A stretch of DNA of 64,000 nt from Anaerococcus octavius (lineage in GTDB: Bacteria; Bacillota; Clostridia; Tissierellales; Peptoniphilaceae), in NCBI RefSeq assembly GCF_900445265.1, contig NZ_UFTA01000002.1, forward strand, positions 310,001 through 374,000. Reading direction: 5' to 3'. Position 1 is the first letter of the stretch, and each line of letters starts with the position of its first letter. This document shows positions 26,263-39,524 of the stretch, piece by piece. The notes below the pieces were generated by a model. That model made no database searches. It was given only the letters and a program-made list of their open reading frames with translations, and was not told the origin of the DNA. The translations under genes were made by a program, and so were the position numbers.

Positions 26263-26291
26263 TTGACATCTAAAATTTTGCATGGTATATT
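26263..26291 (+). promoter_or_regulatory. promoter of the Cys T-box operon
   Basis: TTGACA (26263-26268), 17-nt spacer, TATATT (26286-26291). Transcription would begin about 26298, just before T-box stem I. Confidence 0.85.
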
Positions 26292-26299
26292 TATTCTAC

Positions 26300-26530
26300 A
26301 TGAATAGCTGAGAAAAGAAGAGTACATATTTATTTTCAAATACAGAGAGATTTATTAGCTGAGAAAAATCATTGAAAAACTTATGGAAGTGCATCTTTGA
26401 GTTTTATACCGAATTGATAGTAGGCTATAACGCTAGTGCCCGTTAAGCACATTAAGGTTTTAAGTATTTCTTAAAATAAATTAAGGTGGAACCACGACAA
26501 CCTCGTCCTTTTTTGGGCGGGGTTTTTTTA
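26300..26530 (+). promoter_or_regulatory. T-box leader riboswitch, specifier TGC (Cys)
   Basis: The T-box sequence AAGGTGGAACCACG (26483-26496) and the attached terminator (26499-26528, G-rich stem plus seven T) are textbook. Stem I shows CAGAGAG-type and GAA...TTTGAG conserved elements; the codon preceding the conserved A of A-TCTTTGAG, at 26389-26395 or so, is TGC, matching the position of GGC in B. subtilis glyQS and of TCT in the serS leader of this same window. Uncharged tRNA-Cys would favour antitermination. This stretch accounts for the gap 26149-26566. Confidence 0.85.
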
Positions 26531-26566
26531 TATTCATGGAATATTAGGAAAGGATTTTTGTATGTA

Positions 26567-26779
26567 ATGAAAAAATTAGCTTATATTTCATTAGCAGTCA
26601 CCATGGCTTTTACTTTTTCTGCCTGTAGCAGCTTAAATGCTGGTACAAATGTAAAAGAAAATGAAAATACTAATACTAATAATGGAGAAATTTTAGTTGA
26701 CGATTTAGAAAAAGTTGACTTTATGGATAAAGATTTTGATATGTCACAAATTGAGCAACATAGTTGCTGTGATGAATAA
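26567..26779 (+). CDS. small Cys-Cys lipoprotein, first gene of the T-box operon
   Basis: 70 residues. A lipoprotein signal with lipobox SAC (Cys20) is followed by a short Asn/Thr/acid-rich linker and a C-terminus IEQHSCCDE with a vicinal Cys pair and His next to it. I do not recognise the family. ATG 26567 is preferred although GGAAAGGA is 12 nt away; a TTG at 26558 is closer and in frame. It lies 15 nt before the substrate-binding protein gene, so it is probably an extracellular partner of the importer; the HxCC end could bind metal or a thiol ligand (inference). Confidence 0.7.
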   Translation: MKKLAYISLAVTMAFTFSACSSLNAGTNVKENENTNTNNGEILVDDLEKVDFMDKDFDMSQIEQHSCCDE

Positions 26780-26793
26780 AAAGGAGAATTAAA

Positions 26794-27852
26794 ATGAACA
26801 AAAATAAATTATTGGCTGTACTTTTACTTGGTGGGTTGACATTTGCAGGATGTGGCAAACAAGATGCAAATCAAGGACAAAATCAAGCAGTAGAAGAAAA
26901 TAAAAATGTAGCTGAAGCTATCACACTAGAAGAAGAACCAAGATACAATACCCCAATAAAAATGGGCTTTGATGGTGATTTATGTATGGCAGGACAAAAC
27001 CTTGCTGAAATCAAAGGATACTTTAAAGATAAGGGAATTGATATAGAATTTATCAATACTCAAAATGGTAAAGATGCACTATCAACAGGGCAAATTGATG
27101 TAATGACTGGAGAATTTGGTTCATTAATAGTGCCTGCTACTAAAGGATTAAATTATGTATTCTCTACATCATCACACTCAGGATGCAAGTCACTTTATGT
27201 TTTAAATGAAAATAAAGATTTACAAAAAACTTCAGATTTGCTTGGCAAATCAGTAGCAGTTACAAATGGTATAGGCAATAGTGGCCACAATACACTTTTA
27301 AGATTTTTGGTGCATGATGATGTAAACCCAGATGACATAAAAGTAAAACCAGTAGAAAAATCTGCAGTAATTCAATCTCTGGAAAAAGGAGAAATTCAAG
27401 GAGCGGTACTAGATGATCAATTTGCCCAAGAATTTTTACAAAAAGATATAATCAGACCAATTAGATCACTAACAACAGATGAAGATTTTGGAAAAGAAGT
27501 ATGCTGTGTAGCTGCTTTTAACAAAGATTTTGTAAATAATAATCCTATGCTTGCAGAACTTGTAGCAGAAGCTATCGATGAAGGAAATACATTTGCATCA
27601 GAAAATCCTGAAGAATCTATAAAACTTCTTCAAGAGAAAAACTTTGCTGAGGGTGATCCAGAAGTAGCAGCAGATCTACTAAAATCATATGATTATTCAC
27701 TAACAAATGAAGATGGTGAAACAACAATTAGAAGTTACTTTAATGATTACAAAAAACTTGGACTAATTCCAGATAAGAAATCTACAGATGAATTAGTAAA
27801 AGAACTTTGGAGACCACTAGGTAATGGAGAAGTAGAAGTAATTAGAAAATAG
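26794..27852 (+). CDS. ABC transporter substrate-binding lipoprotein (SsuA/TauA/NMT1-like)
   Basis: 352 residues. Lipobox FAGC (Cys20). The fold is that of NMT1/SsuA/TauA/ThiY periplasmic proteins: KMGFDGDLCMAGQNLAEIKGYFKDKGIDIEFINTQNGKDALSTGQIDVMTGEFGSLI, then LLGKSVAVTNGIGNSG. Several cysteines sit at predicted ligand-facing loops (GDLCMAG, HSGCKS, EVCCVAA), unusual for the family. Given the TGC T-box, cysteine or a sulfur precursor is a likely ligand (inference); a classic sulfonate cannot be ruled out. ATG follows AAAAGGAG. Operon partners are the permease and ATPase downstream. Confidence 0.85.
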   Translation: MNKNKLLAVLLLGGLTFAGCGKQDANQGQNQAVEENKNVAEAITLEEEPRYNTPIKMGFDGDLCMAGQNLAEIKGYFKDKGIDIEFINTQNGKDALSTGQIDVMTGEFGSLIVPATKGLNYVFSTSSHSGCKSLYVLNENKDLQKTSDLLGKSVAVTNGIGNSGHNTLLRFLVHDDVNPDDIKVKPVEKSAVIQSLEKGEIQGAVLDDQFAQEFLQKDIIRPIRSLTTDEDFGKEVCCVAAFNKDFVNNNPMLAELVAEAIDEGNTFASENPEESIKLLQEKNFAEGDPEVAADLLKSYDYSLTNEDGETTIRSYFNDYKKLGLIPDKKSTDELVKELWRPLGNGEVEVIRK

Positions 27853-27866
27853 TTAAGGAGAAATAA

Positions 27867-28904
27867 ATGGCAATAAATAATGAAAAACCAACTGCCGTAT
27901 CTACTAAAAACTTAACAGCCGAAGAACTTATAAAATTAGAATCAAAACCCAGAAATAAAAATAAAGAAATACTTAAATTACTATTACCAATAATAGTTGG
28001 AGTATTAGCTATATTAGAATATTTATTTATGCCGGATTTGGATCCTACAGCAGTAAAAACTAATCTTTATCCTGGGTTTTTAGCTATACTTTTAGCCATA
28101 TACATTATTTCTTTACTAGTATCACTTAAAAAAGAAAATGTGAGAGATAGACTTTTATACAAATCAAATTTTTATGTTTTTGTTTTTGTAATACTTATGC
28201 TTTATGATATTGCAACAATAAAGACAGGGAAATTAGCCCTACCATATTTTCCGTGGTTAGATATGATATTTAATTCTATGAAAGAAGATAAAGGCTACTT
28301 GGTTGAATCAGTAGCAAGCTCACTAAAATTACTATTTACAGGTTATATAATAGGAGCTGTTTTAGGTATACTTACTGGAATATTGGCAGGATATTTTGAA
28401 AAAGTAAATTATTGGGTGGATCCATTTTTAAAACTACTAGGACCTATTCCAACTACAACATGGCTACCAGTGGTAATGGTAATTGCCATAAATCTTTTTC
28501 AAGGAGCAGTATTTATTATTGCACTTGGAGTTTGGTTTTCAACAACACTTGCAACAATAACTGGTATAAGAAATGTCGAACCATCCTACTATGAGGCTGC
28601 CCAAACTCTTGGAGCAACGAATTCTGAACTGGTAAGAAAAATCGCAATAAAATCAGCAATTCCAAATATATTCCAAGGTCTAATAGCAGGCATGAGTGCA
28701 GCTTGTAATGCCCTAATAGTCGCAGAAATGCTAGGAGTAGAAAGTGGTCTTGGTTGGTATATTACTTGGAAATCATCATGGGCTGACTACTCAGCAATGT
28801 ATGGAGCAATTATTTTACTTGCAATTACTTTTATACTTGTAAATAAAGTAATAAAAAATATAAGTAATAGAGCTTTAAAATGGAAAGTAGGTGGAATAAG
28901 ATGA
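27867..28904 (+). CDS. ABC transporter permease (SsuC/TauC-type)
   Basis: 345 residues. Binding-protein-dependent transport permease with the EAA loop EPSYYEAAQTLGATNSELVRKIAIKSAIPNI (about 235-265), which couples to the ATPase. It has more membrane segments than SsuC: two extra N-terminal helices (near 32-52, 65-85, 100-118) before the usual core. ATG 27867 is behind AAGGAG. It overlaps the ATPase start by 4 nt (ATGA). Confidence 0.88.
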   Translation: MAINNEKPTAVSTKNLTAEELIKLESKPRNKNKEILKLLLPIIVGVLAILEYLFMPDLDPTAVKTNLYPGFLAILLAIYIISLLVSLKKENVRDRLLYKSNFYVFVFVILMLYDIATIKTGKLALPYFPWLDMIFNSMKEDKGYLVESVASSLKLLFTGYIIGAVLGILTGILAGYFEKVNYWVDPFLKLLGPIPTTTWLPVVMVIAINLFQGAVFIIALGVWFSTTLATITGIRNVEPSYYEAAQTLGATNSELVRKIAIKSAIPNIFQGLIAGMSAACNALIVAEMLGVESGLGWYITWKSSWADYSAMYGAIILLAITFILVNKVIKNISNRALKWKVGGIR

Positions 28905-29647
28905 GCAAATTAGAATTTAAAAATGTATCAAAAGCTTTTCTAAGACCAGATAATAACAGCATTACTACAGCTCTTGATGATATAAATTTTGATATTCATG
29001 AAGGCGAATTTGTAAGTATAGTAGGTCCATCAGGATGTGGAAAATCTACAATGCTAAGGTTAATAGCTGGTTTGATCTTTCCAACTACAGGTGAAATATT
29101 TTTAGATAGTAAAAAAATTGAAGGACCATCTAGTAGAAGAGGCATGGTATTTCAAAAATCAACTCTTTTTCCTTGGCTAACAGTAGAGGAAAATGTAGGA
29201 TTTTCTGGAGATTTGAAAAATGAAGATAATATTAGCCAAGAAGCTATAGATAAGATGTTGGAAAAAGTCGGACTACTAGAATTTAAGGATTCTTATCCAT
29301 CAAACCTTTCTGGTGGTATGGCTCAAAGAATTTCTTTAATTAGAACTTTAATAAATAAGCCAGAAGTTTTGCTATTAGATGAACCTCTAGGAGCCTTAGA
29401 TGCATTTACTAGAATGAATATGCAAGATGAAATTTTAAGACTTTGGAATGAAGAAAAAAATATGACTATAATGGTAACACACGATGTAGACGAAGCTGTT
29501 TATATGTCTACAAAAGTAATTGTTATGGAACCTAGACCAGGCAGAGTAAAAAAAATTGTTCCAATAGATTTAGATTATCCTAGAAAAAGAACGAGCAAGG
29601 AATTTATGGCTTACAGAAATGAATTTTTAAATACCTTAGATATATAA
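28901..29647 (+). CDS. ABC transporter ATP-binding protein (SsuB/TauB-type)
   Basis: 248 residues. Walker A GPSGCGKSTML (near 39), Q-loop FQKSTLFPWLTV, signature LSGGMAQR (near 136), Walker B LLLDEPLGALD, H-loop VTHDVDEAV: the standard nitrate/sulfonate/taurine ATPase. The frame opens at 28880, but the ATGA overlap with the permease stop and the GGTGGA just upstream mark ATG 28901. It ends with a terminator, closing the four-gene Cys T-box operon. Confidence 0.92.
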   Translation: MSKLEFKNVSKAFLRPDNNSITTALDDINFDIHEGEFVSIVGPSGCGKSTMLRLIAGLIFPTTGEIFLDSKKIEGPSSRRGMVFQKSTLFPWLTVEENVGFSGDLKNEDNISQEAIDKMLEKVGLLEFKDSYPSNLSGGMAQRISLIRTLINKPEVLLLDEPLGALDAFTRMNMQDEILRLWNEEKNMTIMVTHDVDEAVYMSTKVIVMEPRPGRVKKIVPIDLDYPRKRTSKEFMAYRNEFLNTLDI

Positions 29648-29651
29648 TATT

Positions 29652-29685
29652 AAGTGCTAATTATTTTAATTAGCGCTTTTTTTAT
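29652..29685 (+). terminator. terminator of the T-box importer operon
   Basis: A 12-bp stem with a G-T pair (29652-29663 with 29667-29678) followed by a T run. Confidence 0.8.
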
Positions 29686-39334: not shown

Positions 39335-39524
39335 GAATATGAGCGATAATAAGACATAGTAACTATTATGAAGTCTTTAGAGAGAAGATGGCTGGTGAAA
39401 ATCTTTGGCAGATGATAGTGAATCTACCTTTAGCTTTTTTTAATATGAGTATGTTATACATAAAAATTGGGTGGCACCACGAGACCTTCGTCCCATGTAG
39501 GATGATGGTCTTTTTTTATGCGAA
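39335..39524 (+). promoter_or_regulatory. T-box leader riboswitch, specifier TCT (Ser)
   Basis: T-box sequence GGGTGGCACCACG (39469-39481) with an overlapping terminator stem (39483-39493 with about 39500-39511) and seven T. Stem I contains the specifier loop GAA-TCT-A followed by CCTTTAG; TCT is a serine codon, agreeing with the downstream serS. The leader fills the gap 39304-39536. Confidence 0.92.

Follow-up and report, generated by a model that had tools for sequence, protein, structure and literature searches.

A cysteine T-box leader in front of an SsuABC-type importer operon with a four-cysteine binding protein in Anaerococcus octavius

The stretch of DNA analysed here (the window) comprises 64,000 nucleotides of Anaerococcus octavius (contig NZ_UFTA01000002.1, positions 310,001 to 374,000 of the forward strand) and includes a T-box leader followed by four genes. 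The features, in window coordinates, are the following:

26263..26291, + strand: promoter-like site TTGACA-17-TATATT with TG before the second hexamer (consensus scan, 11/12 matches)
26301..26513, + strand: T-box leader (RF00230), with the specifier loop GAAGUGCA at 26386-26393
26390..26392, + strand: specifier triplet TGC (Cys), constant in 15/15 leaders lying on one contig with their operon
26485..26493, + strand: antiterminator GGTGGAACC, whose A would pair with the discriminator U of tRNA-Cys
26499..26524, + strand: intrinsic terminator of the leader (terminator scan)
26567..26779, + strand: gene for a 70-aa lipoprotein, lipobox Cys20, C-terminal HSCCDE
26794..27852, + strand: four-cysteine SsuA-like substrate-binding lipoprotein (C64, H128, C131, C237, C238; NMT1 56.3 bits)
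27867..28904, + strand: ABC permease (BPD_transp_1; best NCBIfam model SaoP, 101.2 bits, cut-off 295)
28901..29647, + strand: ABC ATPase, its start overlapping the permease stop (ATGA; best NCBIfam model SaoA, 252.7 bits, cut-off 360)
29652..29678, + strand: operon-end intrinsic terminator (12-pair stem and T run)

The promoter-like site and the two terminators delimit the transcription unit, and the four genes within it are those given in a preliminary description of this DNA. Promoter-like matches occur at chance level (18 found versus 19.3 expected), the site at 26263-26291 being the best of the 18, and terminator-like sites number 4 versus 1.3 expected by chance.

The leader matches the covariance model RF00230 over the full model length with 107.9 bits (gathering score 93, E 7e-23), confirming the T-box of the preliminary description; minimum-energy folding gives a weak signal (z -1.75; 14 of 200 shuffled sequences fold as low) and adds nothing. 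Its specifier loop reads GAA-G-UGC-A. TGC had been placed in the specifier slot partly by comparison with the serS leader, a T-box that does exist at 39337-39498 of the window (91 bits, below gathering). The specifier read-out, set beforehand as the point on which this assignment could fail, gave UGC and no other codon, and the homologous operons, checked likewise, carry the T-box with UGC wherever the leader lies on the same contig (15/15, window included). These 15 amount to 14 distinct leaders, as those of L044 and L055 are identical. A sixteenth leader (G018) has T before TGC and was picked by a pattern already requiring TGC, so that its TGC is not independent. The 15 leaders and that of G018 all score above 93 bits, and GGTGGAA is constant in their antiterminators. 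The tRNA-Cys of the window genome, with the anticodon GCA, has the 3' end TCCA (UCCA), which fits the UGGA bulge of the antiterminator; of the 27 anticodon species read from the genome, the only one that both has discriminator U and matches a triplet of GAAGUGCA is that for UGC. The constancy of UGC and this fit of the antiterminator base to the tRNA-Cys end both uphold the proposed specifier.

A misread specifier, with the leader answering to Val (GUG), Ala (GCA) or, in variant leaders, Met (AUG), is very improbable. The triplets GUG and GCA do overlap UGC in the loop, but the base before UGC is G in 11 and A in 4 of the 15 leaders, turning GUG into AUG in four species and into UUG in G018, with UGC unchanged. 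Moreover, the tRNA-Val, tRNA-Ala and tRNA-Met of this genome carry discriminator A, which does not pair with the A of the bulge, and these specificities were rejected on both grounds. As a control, the same specifier rule assigned Arg, Thr, Val, Ser, Phe and Ile to the leaders before argG, thrS, valS, serS, pheS and ileS, genes named from their translations (6/6). Ten T-boxes were found in the genome, the importer leader being the sole Cys leader among them. Comparison of leaders and tRNAs shows a specificity fitted to tRNA-Cys, and it is well supported, at the level of such alignments, that the T-box is cysteine-specific and has an SsuABC-type importer under its control.

The whole operon is kept in 15 genomes; 15 of the 31 Anaerococcus genomes are without it and one (G018) has a remnant only, a truncated binding-protein gene behind the leader. 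In G015, the binding-protein gene is frameshifted. The operon is thus dispensable. The signature GAANTGCANCTTNGAG, a pattern blind to Cys leaders with other flanks, was found in 17 of 130 Peptoniphilaceae genomes; 16 of the matches precede this operon or its remnant, and the seventeenth (G071, L217) is not recognised as a T-box by Rfam. The T-box-linked binding proteins form one clade with support 100/100, in a tree holding 13 of the 15 (L045, L055 and the remnant L060 left out). A paralogous cassette (L041/L057-L059) has no T-box in front at gathering score; a T-box nearby sits behind its ATPase gene with the specifier AGA, and the gene following it, read in L041 only, was judged from its translation to be argG.

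Likewise, no T-box reaching the gathering score precedes any of the 23 cassettes examined in other genera, and the only one at these loci (L139 = L075) lies behind a double-cubane-like gene. Their neighbours include nitrogenase-like proteins with cysK (3 cassettes: L135, L136 and L142), double-cubane-like reductases (3), molybdoenzymes (3) and an FtsX-like permease carrying a CC-S motif (8, of which 7 were aligned, L117 at a contig end being left out). In the tree, the nitrogenase-associated binding proteins (g50_nif, g51_nif, g118_nif) branch apart from the T-box clade, and their substrate may therefore differ. These placements are read from the tree rows; a count for a 'nif' group picked by name, which wrongly took in the row Flavonif, is void.

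The binding protein matches NMT1 (PF09084; 5.6e-15, 56.3 bits), and its best NCBIfam match is SsuA_fam (TIGR01728) with 77.9 bits, below the 163.5 cut-off. The domain SBP_bac_3 (PF00497), which we take to be that of the binding proteins of polar amino acid and cystine importers, is absent, as Pfam at E <= 0.01 gives NMT1, NMT1_2 and a sub-threshold Phosphonate-bd only. Filing the importer as SsuABC, SAO or cystine importer was rejected, since the SsuA_fam and Sao cut-offs are missed and SBP_bac_3 is absent. By its predicted structure (pLDDT 85.2), the protein is of the SsuA/TauA fold. The structure search gave SsuA (2x26; Z 26.9, rmsd 3.0, 283 residues) level with CmpA and NrtA, and Thi5 matches were also high; it thus names the fold and no ligand.

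The residues C64, C131, C237 and C238 are identical in 26/26 aligned binding proteins; the Anaerococcus alignment comprises 18 of 21 proteins, leaving out L045 (non-ATG start), L055 (frameshifted) and L060 (stop-truncated). In the profile alignment to TauA, which leaves C64 uncovered, C237-C238 fall at Leu204-Asp205, and C131 falls at Asn104, two before Glu106. Leu204 and Asp205 belong to the TauA pocket residues, and SsuA carries Gly-Gly at these positions, according to PMC6906117; the cysteine pair thus sets the protein apart from TauA more than from SsuA. The window protein has a loop G-F-D-G-D-L-C, and the TauA alignment stops short of the sulfonate Gln region (Gln30 in TauA, Gln36 in SsuA). 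The pocket appears, from conservation, to be lined with four constant cysteines, whose closeness in space and position in the cleft we infer from the alignments. The preliminary description had rightly seen extra cysteines and had tied them to this cysteine-regulated operon. The tie did not hold, as the same four are constant in 26/26 proteins and the 23 cassettes of other genera have no T-box in front; the cysteines are a family trait, and as a mark of cysteine regulation they were rejected.

The small lipoprotein has no match in the family libraries beyond its signal-peptide part, in agreement with its earlier designation as a new accessory protein, within the libraries searched. Of the 130 Peptoniphilaceae genomes, 10 have a full-length copy, without exception behind this T-box. 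Among the 15 complete operons it is missing from 4 and degraded in 1, and transport therefore does not depend on it. These 10 sequences were aligned, those of L044, L045 and L055 without their first residues (apparent GTG start), and the degraded L050 was left out. One or two residues separate the CC pair from the C-terminus.

We consider the operon to be probably a cysteine-starvation-induced, sulfur-scavenging ABC importer with a four-cysteine pocket for a thiol-reactive or thiolate ligand. By analogy with the known T-box family, from which the antitermination mechanism is taken, the specifier UGC would be read by the GCA anticodon of uncharged tRNA-Cys and the UGGA bulge would pair with the UCCA end of that tRNA, so that the antiterminator could form and all four proteins of the operon be made. 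The binding protein would most likely capture a thiol-reactive or thiolate sulfur compound, be it cysteine or cystine, a different small thiol or disulfide, a persulfide, or a complex of metal and thiolate, and the lipoprotein, exposing its SCC tail at the cell surface, could reduce this ligand or hand it over to the binding protein. The substrate would be cysteine or a precursor. The nitrogenase-like and cysK neighbours of relatives in 3 of the 23 cassettes of other genera also speak for this reading. Against it, the operon has no enzyme freeing sulfur among its genes and the genome no nitrogenase-like protein by PF00148. The genome carries cysK (391 bits), followed by a gene read as cysE-like, and inside the cell these enzymes might turn released sulfide into cysteine, unless the ligand is cysteine itself.

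An ordinary SsuABC/TauABC-like importer, bringing in a sulfonate or thioether as sulfur source under cysteine limitation, with structural or disulfide-bonded cysteines making no ligand contact, is an unlikely alternative. It would account for the SsuA/TauA fold, the NMT1 domain and SsuA_fam as best NCBIfam match, and the nitrogenase-like and cysK neighbours of 3/23 relatives parallel the locus of Rhodobacter capsulatus in which, according to PMC11423573, a sulfonate importer (SsuCAB) adjoins the isethionate reductase IsrBHDK, with mutants tested. However, the SsuA_fam cut-off of 163.5 bits is missed, the TauA Leu204-Asp205 positions hold Cys-Cys in 26/26 proteins, and the window genome has no nitrogenase-like protein by PF00148, the one enzyme family searched.

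Quite unlikely as well is an importer of the SAO type (Sec-assisted organometallic), for a metal, metalloid or organometal, where the Cys-lined binding protein and the Cys-Cys-tail protein would handle a thiophilic metal and the T-box would reflect thiol or Fe-S demand. The closest named models, SaoP for the permease and SaoA for the ATPase, point this way, together with the SaoX match of the binding protein, the His-rich linkers of two lipoproteins (L042, L046), and the tail of the lipoprotein, similar to that of a 150-aa SaoC (L148; NF040734, 182 bits, cut-off passed) ending in DMDKCC; Sec occurs in SaoX, SaoB and SaoC, as reported in a review (PMC13188914). Nevertheless, all three cut-offs are missed (SaoX 57/300, SaoP 101.2/295 and SaoA 252.7/360 bits), none of five lipoproteins scanned with the SaoC profile (NF040734) matches even at E 10, and the three SaoX proteins found have Gly at the C131 position and vary at CC, as judged by eye. 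In addition, the transcription unit is limited to its four genes, and metal uptake would hardly be expected to respond to cysteine starvation.

Extending the preferred reading, that of a sulfur-scavenging importer, we tentatively suggest, as a possibility short of even odds, that anaerobes have a class of ABC importers of its own. These would capture a thiophilic form of sulfur (a thiol, a persulfide or a thiolate complex) directly on a four-cysteine pocket and pass it along extracytoplasmic Cys-Cys sites, proposed to be the SCC-tail lipoprotein in Anaerococcus and, in other genera, the FtsX-like permease with the CC-S motif. The class would stand under tRNA-Cys control in Anaerococcus and in other anaerobes feed nitrogenase-like, double-cubane or molybdenum reductases. 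The cysteine T-box is a direct clue to the purpose of an orphan importer, and it thereby attaches a sulfur-supply role to a four-cysteine family that turns up repeatedly in anaerobes next to nitrogenase-like, double-cubane-like and molybdenum enzymes. No assigned ligand was found for this family, whose binding protein, being small and soluble, lends itself to testing the contents of such pockets, and the role of the Cys-Cys-tail lipoprotein is open to assay.

Among the literature matches listed, as far as their text extends, no Cys T-box before an SsuABC-type operon, no Anaerococcus T-box and no four-Cys binding protein was recognised, and an earlier description is possible; an attenuator of unnamed type precedes a sulfonate ABC transporter operon according to PMC2965389. 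The R. capsulatus IsrBHDK-SsuCAB locus resembles those relatives in which the importer adjoins a nitrogenase-like reductase (L135, L136, L142), but these lie on another branch and the window genome lacks such a protein (PF00148). With SAO systems (NF040735/733/729/734), as outlined in PMC13188914, the operon shares an SsuABC-type transporter, a Cys-bearing binding protein and a small protein with vicinal terminal cysteines, and it differs in the missed transporter cut-offs, a 70-aa lipoprotein instead of the 150-aa SaoC, the lack of further genes in the unit, and the Cys T-box. With SsuABC/TauABC (PMC6906117, PMC3839906) the operon has in common the binding-protein fold, the permease and ATPase classes and the sulfur-supply role; the Cys-Cys at TauA Leu204-Asp205, C64 and C131, the scores below the NCBIfam cut-off and the tRNA-Cys control set the operon apart. 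Finally, in Clostridium perfringens, PMC2940859 describes cysteine T-boxes before cysKE, cysP1, cysP2 and the ubiG operon, where cysteine depletion relieves premature termination. The leader shares with them the TGC specifier, the GTGGAACC T-box motif and transporters among the targets, which are listed as Na+-H+/amino acid symporters there, whereas the present leader precedes an ABC importer of the SsuABC type accompanied by an unnamed lipoprotein.

Four genes follow a T-box leader in this operon, encoding a lipoprotein of 70 amino acids, a substrate-binding lipoprotein of 352 amino acids, a permease and an ATPase, and the gene upstream of the leader runs in the opposite direction. The signals framing the unit, in window positions, are:

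26263-26291, + strand: promoter-like match TTGACA-17-TATATT, the best in the region
26301-26513, + strand: T-box leader
26499-26524, + strand: leader terminator
29652-29678, + strand: operon-end terminator, closing the unit after the ATPase

The match at 26263-26291 is only likely to be the promoter of the operon, because promoter-like matches are no more frequent across the region than chance predicts (18 against an expected 19.3). On sequence evidence, a cysteine-specific T-box precedes all four genes.

In the T-box family, uncharged tRNA, here tRNA-Cys, stabilises the antiterminator. The specifier loop of the window leader reads GAA-G-UGC-A. Among 15 leaders lying with the operon on the same contig (14 distinct), UGC and GGTGGAA are invariant, and the preceding base is G in 11 leaders and A in the other 4; thus, the overlapping GUG turns into AUG while UGC holds. 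A sixteenth leader, from genome G018 (99.8 bits with RF00230), has T before UGC and was found by a pattern already requiring TGC. Regarding the antiterminator, the bulge UGGA requires a tRNA ending in UCCA, which is carried only by Cys, Gly (2) and Thr (2) among the 27 anticodon species read in this genome, and UGC alone of the six triplets in the specifier loop belongs to a tRNA with that end. As a control, the same rule applied to the argG, thrS, valS, serS, pheS and ileS leaders of this genome returned Arg, Thr, Val, Ser, Phe and Ile, respectively, the genes being named from their translations and serS being read without the spacer base. The bulge base, read by eye from the 3' ends (an automated pattern caught four), is readable in nine of the ten leaders of this genome, and each time it matches the end of the cognate tRNA, through a G-U pair in the Arg leader; no clear UGGN bulge is seen in the ileS leader. 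The window leader is the sole Cys leader among the ten T-boxes found. The preliminary description had proposed a T-box with a TGC specifier, and both proposals are borne out, the first by 107.9 bits with RF00230 against a gathering score of 93, the second by the invariant UGC and a bulge fitting tRNA-Cys; as a reading of sequence, the assignment to cysteine is firm.

Two other leaders deserve mention. The serS T-box (window 39337-39498) has UCU and a bulge UGGC fitting the GCCA of tRNA-Ser, at 91 bits, slightly below the Rfam gathering score. The ileS leader L010 (G000:C1:26563-26752; 70 bits with RF00230) may be a T-box that has degenerated or works differently.

Named relatives place the genome of the window in Anaerococcus. 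A scan of 130 Peptoniphilaceae genomes for the Cys-specifier signature gave matches in 17, namely 16 Anaerococcus genomes with one each, ahead of the operon or its remnant, plus one chance hit. The operon is present in 15 of the 31 Anaerococcus genomes, including G015, where the binding-protein gene is frameshifted (L055 6080-7142) behind an intact Cys leader. In the remnant of G018 (L060 138-911), the Cys leader is intact, the binding-protein gene stops at VCCVLAFT, and permease and ATPase were not found within the 7 kb examined. These broken genes reflect decay or, for G015, an assembly error. In the tree, the 13 binding-protein rows linked to the T-box group in a single clade (support 100/100), and a single gain of the T-box is therefore probable. 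Genomes G000, G008, G012 and G023 also have a paralogous cassette, with no T-box ahead of it at the gathering score. The copy in G000 (G000:C1:235457-238407; L041 5458-8407), whose binding protein is ~35% identical, lies directly upstream of an Arg-specific T-box (AGA), then argGH by translation reading; the same importer-then-AGA-T-box order is seen in L057-L059, the gene behind being read in L041 only.

The binding protein has the SsuA/NrtA/CmpA/Thi5 fold by structure search (model pLDDT 85.2, pTM 0.82), and it misses the cut-offs of SsuA_fam (77.9 bits versus 163.5) and SaoX (57 bits versus 300). C64, C131, C237 and C238 are invariant in all 26 aligned binding proteins, which include three from Anaerococcus and, going by label or record name, span 16 genera; residue 128 is His, Gln or Asn. 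Profile alignment puts C237-C238 on TauA chain positions 183-184, which are Leu204-Asp205 in entry numbering, and C131 on Asn104, two residues before Glu106; the offset of 21 also places Glu, Thr and Gly at 106, 132 and 79, agreeing with the TauA paper. That paper describes Leu204, Asp205 and Glu106 as pocket-lining or ligand-binding residues (PMC6906117). The C237-C238 pair also falls on the CCCFC stretch of Thi5. We infer that the four cysteines line the ligand cleft.

Outside Anaerococcus, 23 stretches encoding this binding protein, from 21 genomes, were examined; none has a T-box at the gathering score ahead of the cassette, and no permease of the family was seen in L118 and L143. Nitrogenase-like D/K genes and cysK adjoin the importer in three (L135 1804-9119, L136 5729-14433, L142 988-8144), together with nifH and a nifB-like gene in L142 and O-acetylhomoserine sulfhydrylase in L136. 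These three loci, whose genomes belong to other families, are candidates for encoding C-S reductases. In Rhodobacter capsulatus, isethionate reductase occurs with its own SsuCAB importer (PMC11423573). Double-cubane-like genes directly follow the importer genes in three (L119 10358-12282, L120, L139), L119, the one scanned, passing NF040772; clusters with double-cubane and Sao genes are proposed, in a preprint, for methyl-sulfur or methyl-selenium metabolism (PMC10418091). A molybdopterin oxidoreductase lies nearby in L116, L118 and L123 (3/23), that of L118, the only one scanned, matching a formate dehydrogenase model best, with models for DMSO/selenate and thiosulfate reductases next; every score falls short of its cut-off. 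One stretch (L143, the same as L076) has RACo and methyltransferase genes nearby. An FtsX-like permease is near in eight (L114, L115, L117, L122, L081, L134, L137, L142), several of these loci also having a DUF4418 protein (checked against Pfam in L114 only) and a LolD-like ATPase. All seven aligned FtsX proteins (L114 9454-11732, L115, L134, L137, L142, L122, L081) share a CC-S motif, and this FtsX/MacB-like permease may act with the importer in one thiophilic pathway. Six stretches have none of these neighbours (L072, L082, L121, L138, L140, L141), L138 having a methionine-gamma-lyase-like gene and L140 nothing closer than remote nitrogenase-like matches (22-24%). The counts are no more than suggestive, because contig ends truncate some stretches, several stretches share a genus (g34 supplies four) and the tallies are raw, uncorrected for chance. 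RNA elements also occur, with a cobalamin riboswitch at L138 4293-4470, about 2.6 kb from the importer, and a skipping-rope RNA at L121 2261-2340, near the importer genes.

The importer would take up sulfur in a form that meets the cysteines, and the lipoprotein, where present, would help through thiol exchange or hand-over. In this genome, cysK is followed by a gene read as cysE-like, and therefore sulfide could be used; a profile search found no nitrogenase-like protein in it, and therefore the substrate may be of direct use to the cell, cysteine and cystine being among the candidates. Extrapolation from the nitrogenase-like loci is weakened because their binding proteins sit on a different tree branch from the T-box clade.

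Exactly ten of the 130 genomes have a full-length match to the lipoprotein (E at most 5e-28), in every case immediately after the T-box; the next-best match (E 3e-8) spans only positions 1-52 of 72. S21, F52, D54, F57 and S66-C67-C68 are invariant in the ten rows, one of which (L049, genome G014) carries Tyr in place of the lipobox cysteine. The G007 copy is degraded and contains stops, and the lipoprotein is absent in G002, G003, G004, G016 and the G018 remnant. In family library searches, matches were confined to the signal-peptide part. Two Cys-Cys-tail lipoproteins (L042 5764-5985, L046 5742-5978) have His-rich linkers, which suggests metal contact.

The lipoprotein tail may also resemble the Cys-Cys tail of mercuric reductase. 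In the Sec-assisted organometallic (SAO) system, whose SaoX was detected in 3 of 391 class genomes, the SaoC proteins of loci L148 (902-1351) and L150 end in Cys-Cys, the former passing NF040734 and the latter assigned by eye, and SaoX at both has Gly at the C131-equivalent position. SaoC is the closest analogue of the lipoprotein, the likeness lying in the Cys-Cys tail only, as SaoC has 150 amino acids compared to 70 in the window. The importer, accompanied here by a lineage-specific accessory lipoprotein, is of known fold, but its four-cysteine family is named by no library searched.
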